A stretch of 64,000 nucleotides of DNA from contig JNEU01000898.1 in NCBI GenBank assembly GCA_000697475.1, positions 1 to 64,000 of the forward strand, written 5' to 3'. The notes beneath the pieces are model-generated. The model worked only from the letters and a program-made list of their open reading frames with translations. It had not been told where the DNA came from and ran no database searches. This DNA comes from Lichtheimia corymbifera B2541 (taxonomy: Eukaryota > Mucoromycota > Mucoromycetes > Mucorales > Lichtheimiaceae). Shown here piece after piece: positions 30,294-44,955 of the stretch. Made by a program: the position numbers and the translations under genes. Numbering within the stretch: position 1 is the stretch's first letter; each line of letters starts with the position of its first letter.

Positions 30294-30890
30294 TGCGGAG
30301 AGTGGGGAAGAGCTGGTCTAATAGTAGTTCAAGCGGTTCAGTTGGTGTTCTTTCATGGAAATCAGCTCCAAGCTCAGCCAAGCAATACAGCCGGATTCAT
30401 TGAATAATAAAACGTTACGTTTTCCATCTCCAATTACACACTTTCGGGAAGCATAGTATGATCATATTTATGATACGGAAAGGGGGATCAAATCATGGAT
30501 TACTGCGCATAAATTCACAGGCTTGGTTATGTAATGGAAAAAATGTCATTGTTGTCTTTGATGGCATGTTCATTGTTAACCTATAGTCTAAGGTAGTATT
30601 AATCACAATCACCCATACCTCCTCGAATCATTCCCTCTCTTAATGTCATCCCACCCTTTATTGCGGCGTCATATGTAATAATAATGATAAGCTATGTAGT
30701 CAAGTCCAAGTGGGTTATAAGCAATGCTTTATTCTGTCGAGCTACTCGGCCCCCATCACAAAGCCAGAAATGATCCATCTTCATCGTCGAATGGATGGCC
30801 CAGATGTGGTGCCTGTATGTACATGGTAAAATAACCTATGTTACCATCTGTTCCCTTTCTCTTCAACATTTGGACCATCCCACTCAAAAA
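30294..30890. other. Intergenic region upstream of VPS35
   Basis: About 600 bp with the VPS35 promoter. No coding frame or repeat recognised. Confidence 0.4.
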
Positions 30891-31660
30891 CTCCATAAAG
30901 AAGCATGTGGTTTTGAAATGAATGGAGTTGATCAGCATGACTCAGCGAACCTTCTTACCAAGTTTCATGTTCGAAATGGGTAATGAATCCGACGGGTATC
31001 CAGTTTCCGACCAACATAGTAAATCCCACATTATACCCTCCCATTCCCAATTTTCAAATGAAGTATGAGGTCTTTATGAGAACGAAATTGATCAGCATGT
31101 CTGAGAGCACGTTGTCTGAAAATTTCAAGTTTGAGAAGGGTGATCTCATGGTTATGGGTCGTCCACCCTCCATATATTATTCCTGTGCGTTCAACGTCAG
31201 GCGCTCCCATTTATGATTTCACAATGAAGCCTGCAACTTTAATATGAATGGAGTTGATCAGCATGTCGGATCCCACGGCCTGACCAAGTTTGACGATGGA
31301 GGTGGGCAACGGCGGGGGTGTGCACTATACACCCTGCTTGCGTTCCGTCCGTCCATCGATTCTCCTAAATTTGAACCGCCCGATTCGTAAAACCTCATAA
31401 TGAAGCATGCAGTTATTAAATGAATGGAATTGATCAGCATGACTCAGAGAGCCTTCATACCAAATTTCAAGTCCAAGAGTGGGAATCCCAAGGTAATTCA
31501 TACTAAATGGCATTTCACAAATCCGGGCGGGGTACGGAATTTCCGTCCATCATAGTAAACCCCACATTACATCCTCCCATTCAAAATCTTTGAATGAAGT
31601 ATGGGTTCTTTATTAAGACAAAATTGATCAGCATGAGCAAGAGCATCTTGTGTGCAAGTT
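30890..31660. repeat. Degenerate repeat array, five units, core TTGATCAGCATG
   Basis: The 12-mer TTGATCAGCATG occurs at 30928, 31088, 31254, 31430 and 31624, so the spacing is 160, 166, 176 and 194 bp. About 30-40 bp before each core there is a variant of AATGAAG(C/T)(A/C)TG, and before that a CTCCCATT-like run in most units. Alternate units resemble each other more (GGAGTTGATC versus GAAATTGATC). No stable coding frame runs through the array. Confidence 0.75.
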
Positions 31661-36067: not shown

Positions 36068-36455
36068 CCCTTTTTACATTATATCAAGCTGTATTATCTA
36101 TCATACACTAGAGAGATTGATGTATTATTAAAGGCTATCATTGGTTAATAGAACGGGAGATTGTATTATGCACTACCGGATGGCGACATCTTGCTTCTGT
36201 GTGCCATTTTAAAATGTCCATTTTTCGTGGTATAGTCTTTAATAATGTTGTTACATTGTACTAAGCGTTGCAGTAAACAGAGGATCGAGTACTTTCGATT
36301 GATGGCTCTACTGATGTCCTTTTTGTAGTACTGGAATTCGTGAAAGATTTGGGCTGTTGCATGACATGTAGTATAGTCGTAAATGCTGCTAGAGTGCCGA
36401 TCCAAATAGGTAAATAGCCGTATCCTAGCAACAAGCAGAGATGATAGGATTCAAT
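36068..36455. other. No supported gene
   Basis: Short overlapping minus-strand frames (for example 36166-36405) look weakly protein-like but have no recognised domain. They stop at the edge of the dispersed repeat. Confidence 0.3.
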
Positions 36456-36865
36456 TTCACACACATCATGGGTAACAACGAGGTATTCAGGTAAGCAAGC
36501 CTATTGGGTGCTGTAACGTAGGTATCAACGAGGTATCAACGAGGTATCATGGCTGTGTTTCCTCACTGTCACACGCCAAGGTCGTTTTATCATTCTATTT
36601 AACCACACATCATGGGTAACAGAGCAACTTGGTCAAGAAACGCGTCGTTGGTTGGGGGTTGAGGAATTGTCGTGCCAATAGATTAGCCATTGCGTGAATA
36701 CAATTCGTGTGGAGGAAGCAGTTGAGAGAGTCATTGTCGAGTCGAGTGAAATCCGATTGGATATTACGAAAGGAGCGTTACTCAGCATGTTACCACGCGG
36801 CGAGCGAAAAGAGCGTTACTCGGTAACAACCCGAAAGCTGCTGAGTGGTGCTTGTTTAACCTCAC
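36456..36865. repeat. Dispersed repeat, copy 1 (about 410 bp)
   Basis: The block starts with ACACATCATGGGTAACAACG, carries three nearby ACGAGGTAT words and one partial restart of the unit (36603), then a unique body, and ends with GTTACTCGGTAAC and CCCGAAAGCTGCTGAGTGG. The same sequence, in the same order and orientation, recurs at 44141-44955. Confidence 0.85.
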
Positions 36866-41136: not shown

Positions 41137-41770
41137 TAATAATCTTCCAAGCAGTAACCTTCATCATCTCTTAAAGTGGATAATCTCTTAAGGTGGGTAA
41201 AATACCTTCAACTTTTCAATAAGATGATGATCAGTGCCCTCGATAATGGCCAAAGAACTTTGGCCCACAAGAAGCGCATATCCAAATTGACTTTGCATTA
41301 AAGTGGATAAGAGTTCAATCAGTTGAGAATATTTATCATCGTATGTAAAGTTGCAAGTTATTTTGCGTTACAATGCTTCCCATTAGTGCTCTATAGAGAG
41401 TCCCTTTGTCGCACAAAGCATGGTGTATGTGTATGGAGCTTGGGGGTTATCAAACCAGGTTCAAATACAATTTCTTGTTACCGGGTAACGCTATTTTTGC
41501 CACTCTACCATGTAGCACCCTGATACTCACTATTGCTCCTCGACTTCAATTTCAAAACCTTCTATTTGAATTATAAGGTACTCAGGAAGCATTACTTTTA
41601 ATGACGGCATCAATTTTTCGATCGGTGGTGGACACGTATAATGTAGGGTGCGCAGCTGTTTTTTGAGAATTCAATCACCGCCCTACCCTCAGGTTGGGTT
41701 GTTACCGGGTAACACTTCTTTGTCTGCTTATTTTCACCTTTGTTGGTAACAGCGTTACTCATCGCCACTG
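41137..41770. promoter_or_regulatory. Upstream region of the nuclease ORF with two GTTACCGGGTAAC palindromes
   Basis: The 13-bp palindrome GTTACCGGGTAAC occurs twice, at 41477-41489 and 41701-41713, 281 and 57 bp before the ORF. A third related site, GGTAACAGCGTTAC, lies about 15 bp before the ATG. Similar motifs (GTTACYBGGTAAC) close the dispersed repeat. The half-site CGGGTAA also resembles the yeast Reb1 site, but that link is only a resemblance. Confidence 0.55.
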
Positions 41771-42853
41771 ATGTCAAGTCTGCCAACTCCTACCATTCCT
41801 GTCGACCTCTTGGCCTTTTCTCTTCCTCACCGCACTGATTTGATGTCGAAGCTTCTGCTAATCGATAAAACAGTAATGAACATGGTAGTCGAAGCCTTGG
41901 TGAACGAATCAGCACGAGACGAATACACCCCATGGCCCACTGAATGGCCAAACCGTCGCGTATCCGATGTGCTGTATATGCCCAAGGAGCCGAACACTGA
42001 CCGGCACCCACCAATCCTCATCGAGGTTCAACGCACTGTTGATAACGACTTCATCCTACGATTAACGTCATATGCCCTATCCATCATCCAACAATATGGC
42101 ACTCCACCTATCATTCTCACCTTCGCCACAGCAACCATGAAATACGAAGTTGTGAAGCGCACCAAACGCAACAAACAACTCTCATTCTTATTACAATATC
42201 CATGCCATCCCTGGGCTTCTGCTTGTTACTTTGTCGATGAAAAGCAAGTGGAATCAATGACCCCGCCTCTTGATCCTTTTCCCTGCATAGCTGCATTTCT
42301 CACTGGTCAGCATACTTCGCTCACTCGCAGTCCTTATCGCAACGACCCAACAATGAAACTCCTGTATACCATTGCCACTCGTTTATTCCATGATCAGATT
42401 ATCCAGCACGACGAAGCAGCCACAGATCTCGTGGATCTTTGCCAGAATACGATCAATGACATACAACAAGCTATCGATACATTTCAAGATGATTCCACCG
42501 CACAAGCATCACGAATTCTTCAAAACACAATTGATCAGTTAGCTGTCTACAAAAACAAGTACGAGTCTGTAGAAGTGGAATCTTCGTCGTCGTCTTCTCT
42601 TCCTTCTCCGTCATCCTCCTCTTCCGCTCCGACTGCTCCCCCTGCTCCCCCTGCTGCCAATGCCGATGCTAATGCCGATGCTAATGCCAATGCCTGCTGG
42701 GGGTACGTTGATCAGCGTGTGAATGATTGTCAAGGCCATCCCATCCCTTGGGAGTCCATCTTCGACGACGGCAAAAAGAAGGGCTTATTCTCGTACAAAA
42801 ATTGGAGGGTATTGAAGTCTTCTTATTACAGATGGTCAAAGCAAAGCGCTTGA
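41771..42853 (+). CDS. PD-(D/E)XK nuclease-family protein (PDDEXK_2/Rpn-like), copy A
   Basis: 360 aa, single exon, intact. The core fits the PDDEXK_2 (transposase-associated Rpn-like) pattern: D66 in SDVLYMP, E85-V-Q87 in PILIEVQ, and R97 plus Y101 in ILRLTSYALSI. The family's third catalytic position is Q rather than K, as is common there. After the core come FATATMKYEVVKRTKRNK, a helical section, and a Ser/Pro/Ala/Asn-Ala low-complexity tract (about residues 275-310) before a Trp-rich C-terminus (YKNWRVLKSSYYRWSK). Bacterial relatives act in recombination or as transposase-like nucleases; activity here is not shown. No intron and a related broken copy 1 kb away suggest a mobile or amplified gene. 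Confidence 0.65.
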   Translation: MSSLPTPTIPVDLLAFSLPHRTDLMSKLLLIDKTVMNMVVEALVNESARDEYTPWPTEWPNRRVSDVLYMPKEPNTDRHPPILIEVQRTVDNDFILRLTSYALSIIQQYGTPPIILTFATATMKYEVVKRTKRNKQLSFLLQYPCHPWASACYFVDEKQVESMTPPLDPFPCIAAFLTGQHTSLTRSPYRNDPTMKLLYTIATRLFHDQIIQHDEAATDLVDLCQNTINDIQQAIDTFQDDSTAQASRILQNTIDQLAVYKNKYESVEVESSSSSSLPSPSSSSSAPTAPPAPPAANADANADANANACWGYVDQRVNDCQGHPIPWESIFDDGKKKGLFSYKNWRVLKSSYYRWSKQSA

Positions 42854-43319
42854 GCTTTGTTGTCACTATCCACTATACCAAGACTTGCCTCGTTCTCATG
42901 CTTATCATGTCCATATATCCCCATCCCCAATTGTACCATTCTCATTATCGATCATTACTCTTGTCGTCTTTTGTTTTCATATAGCTTCATCCACAATTGT
43001 GCATCTTTGAACATGTTCTCGTTAATTCAAGCCACTATATGAACACTCTTTCTCTATCAAAACCAATGTCTACTAAACAGCCAATTCCTCGCTTTTCAAG
43101 AATCTTTCTGTTATTCATGTTGATAAAATACGTCGTGCCTTTATGTATCATTGAGTGAAACGTTGACAATATCTGCTCCATGTTTATTTGTGTGTGCTAT
43201 GCGATTCAAGTGACCACATTGCTGGTCACTGATAGTACGTCTGGATCCTCAGGCGATTCATAAGCTTCACTAGCAGCCTTTTCTATACCAATCCATAATA
43301 CGGCCCACAAAAGGAGAGA
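42854..43319. other. Spacer between the two nuclease copies
   Basis: About 470 bp, AT-rich, no gene seen. Confidence 0.4.
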
Positions 43320-44145
43320 TCAGATTGACACCTGCTTGCGGCACATGCGACTGCTTGTGGGAAACCAAACAACAATGTCAAGGTGCAATGGACACCATGT
43401 TGCTTTTCTAATACTTAAATGCACAATGCATTTATCAGTGTCACTTTTCCATGCATAGGATACCGAAAAGTGCTTACCGATGCAGCCTGGATACCTTCCC
43501 AAGTGGATGCAATCTTTCTTGATACTATCATCTTCATACATCTCCATCAAGCGAAGAGCCTTGGCAATAGTGGCATCCATTTCAAATGACAAACAAGCAT
43601 CCACCTCGGTTGATACACGGCCGAGCACAATCTTGAGAATCTCCCTGCCGAAATCGACCAACAAACGATCCATGGCCCATTCAGCTTGCTCCTCGTTGGA
43701 TCTATGAGATGTGAACAGTAATGATGGGATAACCCACACGCATAACAAACAAACAAAGGTCACTTACCCTCCCTTACTCTTCCCATACTCAATAGCTGTT
43801 GTGCGGTGGAGTCATCAGCTTGTTGTATGTCGTTGATAGTATATTCTGGCAAAGATCCACGAGATCTGTGGCTGCTTCGTCGTGTTGGATTATCTGATCA
43901 CGGAATAAACGAGTGGCAATGGTATACAGGAGTTTCATTGTTGGGTCGTTGCGATAAGGATTGCGAGAGAGTGAAGCATGCTGACCAGTGAGAAATGCAG
44001 ATAGGCACACAAAAGGATCAAGAGGCTGGCTTATTGTTTTCATCGACGAAGTAACAAGCAGAAGCCCAGGGCTGGCATGGATACTGTAATAAAATGAGAG
44101 GCGTTTGTTGCGTTTGGTTCGCTTCACAACTTCGTATTTGACCAC
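43320..44145 (-). pseudogene. PD-(D/E)XK nuclease-family copy B, truncated and disrupted
   Basis: The minus-strand frame starts abruptly at VKYEVVKRTKRNKR, equal to about residue 124 of copy A, so the catalytic D and E-x-Q are absent. It runs nearly identical to copy A (GQHASLSRNPYRNDPTMKLL, IIQHDEAATDLVDLCQN), then breaks by small indels. A further family-like segment ([20 protein letters not shown]) follows in 43500-43700 after a possible intron. Its 5' end touches the first unit of the tandem repeat at 44141, so the N-terminal half was replaced by or recombined with the repeat. Confidence 0.7.
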
Positions 44146-44955
44146 ACATCATGGGTAACAACGAGGTATTCAGGTAAGCAAGCCTATCGGGTGCTGTAAC
44201 GTAGGTATCAACGAGGTATCAACGAGGTATCATGGCTGTGTTTCCTCACTGATACCATGATCGAGTGCGTGCTCATTTCTTTTTTTGCTACAAGTACACG
44301 CCCAAGGTCGTTTTATCATTCTATTTAACCACACATCATGGGTAACAACGAGGTATTCAGGTAAGCAAGCCTATTGGGTGCTGTGTAACGTAGGTATCAT
44401 CGAGGTATCAACGAGGTATCATGGCTGTGTTTCCTCACTGATACCATGATCGAGTGCGTGCTCATTTCTTTTTTTGCTACAAGTACACGCCCAAGGTCGT
44501 TTTATCATTCTATTTAACCACACATCATGGGTAACAACGAGGTATTCAGGTAAGCAAGCCTATTGGGTGCTGTAACGTAGGTATCAACGAGGTATCAACG
44601 AGGTATCATGGCTGTGTTTCCTCACTGTCACACGCCAAGCAACTTGGTCAAGAAACGCGTCGTTGGTTTGGGGTTGAGGAATTGTCGTGCCAATAGATTA
44701 GCCATTGCGTGAATACAATTCGTGTGGAGGAAGCAGTTGAGAGAGCCATTGTCGAGTCGAGTGAAATCCGATTGGGGAGAAAGACAAGACTGACCGGATA
44801 TTACGAAAGGAGCGTTACTCAGCATGTTACCAGGCGGCGAGCGAAAAGAGCGTTACCTGGTAACAACCCAAAGCAGCATGTTACCAGGCGGCGAGCGAAA
44901 AGAGCGTTACTCGGTAACAACCCGAAAGCTGCTGAGTGGTGCTTGTTTACTGTAT
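44141..44955. repeat. Dispersed repeat, copy 2, with 187-189 bp tandem units
   Basis: Units start with ACCACACATCATGGG at 44141, 44328 and 44517 (spacing 187 and 189 bp). The third is partial and passes into the same body as copy 1 at 36.6 kb. Within the body, a block of about 50 bp with AGCATGTTACCAGGCGGCG and a GTTAC...GGTAAC site is itself duplicated (about 44820-44918). Compared with copy 1 there is an extra insert of about 29 bp near 44776-44804. Confidence 0.85.

Follow-up and report, generated by a model that had tools for sequence, protein, structure and literature searches.

The initiator genes of iteron plasmids have a private array of direct repeats upstream, which represent the initiator's own sites. 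A nuclease gene with its own cognate repeats is also described for the RAYT transposases, bacterial enzymes related to the IS200/IS605 transposases whose palindromic REP repeats usually exceed 100 per genome (PMC2817692). In the Ac/Ds system of maize, a DNA enzyme is described as being flanked by many copies of a hexamer that is bound by the Ac enzyme (PMC3260210). The accounts of the Spok meiotic drivers of Podospora describe a PD-(D/E)XK killer nuclease that is combined with a protective function within the same element (PMC6660238, PMC9972908). Finally, RpnA of E. coli, which belongs to the Rpn or YhgA-like group (Transposase_31, PF04754), is described as requiring residues D63, E82 and Q84 and as having little sequence specificity (PMC5350276).

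The locus compared here lies in the genome of Lichtheimia corymbifera B2541 (35 Mb, 432 contigs), within a stretch of 64,000 nucleotides of contig C257 that is referred to as the window. It contains the following features:

36449..36858 (no strand): solo copy of a composite repeat, with no nuclease match at this place
41477..41489 (+): perfect palindrome GTTACCGGGTAAC, distal upstream copy
41701..41713 (+): perfect palindrome GTTACCGGGTAAC, proximal copy, with the ATG 57 bp further on
41745..41758 (+): half-site pair GGTAAC...GTTAC, immediately 5' of the ATG
41771..42853 (+): intact gene of a predicted nuclease (open ORF, 360 aa), with a nuclease domain (residues ~17-200), a helical hairpin (207-265), a disordered linker and a C-terminal three-helix domain
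41966..42031 (+): active-site stretch D66 ... E85-V-Q87, with the same residues in 16/16 aligned rows
42656..42850 (+): C-terminal three-helix domain, with W327 and Y342 invariant in alignment A1
43799..44157 (-): decayed convergent second nuclease copy (~residues 118-245, stops inside)
44135..44627 (no strand): 189-bp tandem repeat, 2.6 copies, bearing GGTATC and GTAAC sites
44638..44949 (no strand): second half of the repeat block, with 54-bp units at 44820-44929 that carry window-type GTTAC..GTAAC sites
44852..44864 (+): palindrome GTTACCTGGTAAC
44906..44918 (+): palindrome GTTACTCGGTAAC

The intact ORF with its two perfect upstream palindromes was thus recovered as the earlier note had described it, and the predicted fold together with the active site supports its assignment as a PD-(D/E)XK-type nuclease. 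The model shows the core fold and the D..(D/E)x(K/Q) active site of the superfamily, and its top-ranked structure matches are PD-(D/E)XK enzymes, although none of the Foldseek matches of the whole model had an E-value of 0.001 or lower. A Pfam search with the window protein returned no family. The spacing of D66, E85 and Q87 equals that of D63, E82 and Q84 in RpnA, and in the family as a whole these residues and an arginine are spaced like D63, E82, Q84 and R94 of RpnA; the arginine (R97) is missing in one paralogue (L008), and D23 was assigned by eye as the equivalent of RpnA D11. A profile-profile comparison also pointed to Rpn/Transposase_31 (P 7.2e-5, probability 62.7). Among the 16 aligned rows, 13 of which come from the window genome, three weakly matched the Transposase_31 profile (best E 9.7e-4) and two the NCBIfam Rpn model (best 0.058), neither of which amounts to a clear family match. 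No kinase family occurred among the Pfam matches of these rows, and a transposase domain of the IS200/IS605 (HUH) type was not found, the predicted fold being PD-(D/E)XK instead. The family differs from Rpn in being eukaryotic, in its C-terminal domain, in its association with repeat arrays and in the lack of a Pfam match for the window member. The C-terminal three-helix domain, for which a structure search gave no firm match, is a candidate for the DNA-binding part. Given the little sequence specificity described for RpnA, such specificity would be new in this nuclease family.

The genome contains 15 intact paralogues, the window gene among them, and four different queries returned this same set. 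These genes are single, old and deeply diverged according to the tree, and the closest intact pair among the matches listed shares 49% identity. A search of a database of 5.8 billion proteins with the family profile gave at least seven matches among up to 7994 candidates, and the five with a named source among the matches listed derive from Lichtheimia, Circinella and Hesseltinella. The neighbours of the window gene in the tree are a protein of Circinella and an unnamed one from a metagenome; L016 is nearly identical with a protein of L. corymbifera, and L010 lies close to one of L. ornata. The best explanation is that these genes constitute an old family of Rpn-like PD-(D/E)XK endonucleases of the Mucorales. 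The predicted N-terminus of a Circinella minor protein (P0003) consists of a run of I-C/I-G residues, which may stem from the translation of hexamer repeats where the gene begins.

To characterize the upstream regions, we defined a strong array as one with a Tandem Repeats Finder (TRF) score of at least 100 within 1.5 kb upstream. Such an array was present at 11 of the 15 intact genes (11/17 when the broken members L020 and L021 are counted), compared with 1/20 kinase upstream regions, 0/34 tiles of the window and 0/20 random pieces of the same contigs (Fisher P 1.3e-7 for 11/15 against 1/40). L014 has its strong array downstream instead, L016 has a short AACGT array (score 69), and the window gene and L008 (on C300), which lack a motif array, each contain two copies of one perfect 12-13-bp palindrome in the 400 bp upstream. 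A repeated palindrome of this kind was absent from all 277 control tiles of 400 bp (0/80 kinase, 0/137 window and 0/60 random). All 15 intact paralogues are thus accompanied by a repeated motif, albeit by three different criteria (strong array 12, short array 1, repeated palindrome 2) and in a survey of one genome, in which the array hypothesis came from array-bearing loci and was then counted on that same, complete, set. Of the 11 strong upstream arrays, nine end at most 262 bp from the conserved coding start; the distance is 459 bp for L012 and 847 bp for L017. The units, however, differ between members: AAGCGTAACAG is repeated 17 times at C248a, CGTATGAAG 70 times at C293 and a 50-bp unit 12 times at C342, whereas GTTGCA-based repeats occur at C227, GTTGAC-based ones at C414, GTTAAC-based ones at C175 and yet others elsewhere. 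When read in a fixed register, the units of L010 and L014 are part constant and part variable; for the other arrays in this comparison the core was chosen by hand.

The motifs are nearly, not strictly, private. The mean count of a locus's own motif per 1.5 kb was 29 at the home locus and 0.39 at the other loci; since the motif of each locus had been selected there, the former value is high by choice, and what is informative is the near absence at the other loci. Only seven of the 210 off-diagonal combinations reached a count of three, the largest being those of the L022 motif at L011 (13) and the L010 motif at L014 (7). A genome search with the joined motif stretches of 13 of the 15 loci recovered their own loci and at least five secondary places, numbers that are lower bounds because the DNA search skips simple repeats. 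The secondary places include a solo array at C158:80363 (4 kb searched without a nuclease match), an array adjoining a truncated nuclease start at C158:2323, a place joining two array types at C222:68267-68811, and two short or worn arrays at C173 and C308. The likeness to RAYT and REP is that a nuclease gene is accompanied by repeats, whose cognate role here is putative; the difference, besides the PD-(D/E)XK fold, is that the sites occur almost only at the gene's own locus and not as high-copy dispersed repeats. The layout also resembles that of iteron plasmid initiators, from which the fold and the replicon context differ. The array units are more alike than shuffled ones (reached by 0/500) and share the look CG-T-AAC-A, but members of one clade do not have motifs more alike than those of different clades (mean z 0.24 and 0.49, respectively), so that co-evolution along the tree is unsupported. 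Two further observations concern the surroundings of these places: a 304-bp tandem repeat (4.1 copies) at C158:78500-79774 (L069:1-1275) lies near the solo 50-bp array, and C222 holds within 7 kb a dead short paralogue (L021, 64771-65388), the composite array (L072, 68267-68811) and a broken copy of L016 (L020, 70782-71447).

Considering that the motif differs by gene while its position is mostly the same, the factor that reads the motif should differ as well, and the neighbouring protein is the simplest candidate. This favours a reading in which each nuclease forms a self-contained unit with its own recognition sites, a proposal that we regard as evenly balanced between right and wrong. The nuclease would dimerise through the helical hairpin, and its C-terminal helical domain would bind the repeats of a short motif in the promoter of its own gene, an array in most members but a palindrome present twice for the window gene and C300; binding would regulate the expression of the nuclease itself. 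If the enzyme cuts or nicks the DNA there or close by, this may promote expansion of the repeats, inverted duplication leading to convergent second copies, and the rare export of arrays. That two decayed copies (the window remnant and C158:2092) also adjoin arrays counts against self-contained units, as do the little sequence specificity described for RpnA and the imperfect privacy of the motifs. The earlier note had taken the window palindrome itself to be a possible binding site of the nuclease or of a host factor. The idea that the repeated motif is the nuclease's own site gains indirect support from the repeated motifs at all 15 intact paralogues; the palindrome is not spread over the genome. 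GGTAAC/GTTACC occurs six times in the 1.5 kb upstream of the window gene, related palindromic sites are found at 36815, 44852 and 44906, and the five occurrences of the pattern in the window compare with a mean of 0.03 in shuffled sequence. Genome-wide, however, the search proposed in that note gave six GTTACCNGGTAAC sites in two clusters only (the window and C217) against seven for the reversed control pattern, and hence the palindrome is not a dispersed family.

A more restricted explanation is that the promoter array serves as an operator for autoregulation only, that the nuclease acts elsewhere, for instance against invading DNA, and that the arrays grow by slippage. The short distance between array and coding start in nine of the 11 genes agrees with this, as does the resemblance to operators of the repeated palindromes of the two array-less genes. 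We nevertheless consider it rather improbable, as it leaves the convergent inverted copies, the solo arrays without a gene and the composite of two array types unexplained.

The convergent copies form a recurrent arrangement. Three intact genes (C248a, C248b and C314) have a truncated paralogue tail-to-tail downstream, with 48-84 bp between the stop codons; for C414 no partner was matched in the 1 kb downstream that was examined. The three partners comprise the nuclease domain only and, judged from their sequence, are catalytically dead, since the active-site glutamate is lost (IEVQ of the intact genes has become LAIQ, LNIQ and LRIQ). Despite very long branches, two of them have kept an open frame (246 and 177 codons), while the C314 partner is split over two frames. 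The C248b partner has a CGGCTA array directly upstream and the C248a partner an inverted copy of part of the nuclease promoter (83% similar). A fourth dead, short paralogue occurs at C222:64771. The dead partners allow an additional, unlikely, reading as a selfish system of the toxin-antidote type, in which the nuclease would read its private array, which would control it and grow by cutting, the dead paralogue, expressed from a matching promoter in the direction of the nuclease gene, would act as the antidote, and specificities would have diverged such that many non-cross-reacting systems coexist within the genome. In Spok the protection resides in a kinase domain of the same protein, whereas here a separate dead paralogue, found at three of the 15 loci, would be the protector.

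The second copy in the window is also convergent, around 0.9 kb from the intact gene, but decayed. Its 43817-44139 segment (-) is 89.6% identical to 42140-42472, and TGA stops fall within the translated match. A fragment matching transaldolase (TAL_FSA, E 2.2e-12) lies between the two at 43320-43763 (-), and elsewhere in the window direct repeats of ~80-96 bp (83-85% identity) occur at 30886-31635. The earlier note had this copy fused to a tandem repeat; the inverted copy is real and the 189-bp repeat adjoins it, but the repeat type is that of the inverted arrays that flank the C136 nuclease gene, and the copy is therefore fused to the repeat type of a different paralogue. The block is in fact a composite of this C136-type repeat and, following it, the 54-bp units that contain the palindromes at 44852 and 44906. 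The same repeat without a nuclease ORF at 36.5 kb stands as described. Another solo copy is present on C217 as an inverted pair, with no nuclease match within the 9.9 kb examined; a 317-bp tandem repeat (2.2 copies) lies near it at C217:5833-6515 (L047:1334-2016).

The earlier note had proposed one selfish or mobile family. Its decayed and non-coding copies are borne out, but the palindrome is not dispersed, the intact paralogues are old and single, and the 189-bp repeat belongs with a different paralogue. In its most explicit form such a family would be a DNA transposon family, in which the arrays are subterminal repeats for a PD-(D/E)XK transposase, like the Ac hexamers, and the solo arrays and broken copies are relics. 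It is kept alive by the inverted arrays (at C136, where they flank the gene on both sides, and at C248b; ends inspected by eye only), by the solo arrays without an ORF and by the near-identical broken copies of four members (the window gene, 90% at the DNA level; L016/L020; L007/C373, 87% over 71 residues; L019/C158, 90% over 52 residues), to which the weak Transposase_31 match of three rows may be added. It is weakened because the 15 intact genes are old and single and because, in contrast to Ac with its terminal inverted repeats and 8-bp target duplications, neither was recognised at the nuclease loci when the ends were inspected by eye, so that mobility is unproven; furthermore, at most loci the strong array within 1.5 kb is confined to one flank. 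We consider a transposon origin quite unlikely. Variation commonly arises from repeats in promoters, and the arrays could be regulatory or passive minisatellites unrelated to the protein, tolerated by fast-evolving genes or bound by a host factor, but this is very unlikely, as a single host factor predicts one motif everywhere while the motifs differ by locus, the kinase and random controls are largely without arrays, and the units of L010 and L014, read in a fixed register, have a constant and a variable part.

Should the arrays indeed consist of sites of the neighbouring nucleases, as proposed for the self-contained units, a single genome would offer around 15 natural pairs, each of a DNA-binding protein from one related set and its sites. 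How DNA specificity evolves could then be read directly, and the pairs would hint at the origin of private satellite arrays beside genes. They would represent a eukaryotic counterpart of the bacterial units of a gene plus its cognate repeats, with a possible built-in inhibitor.
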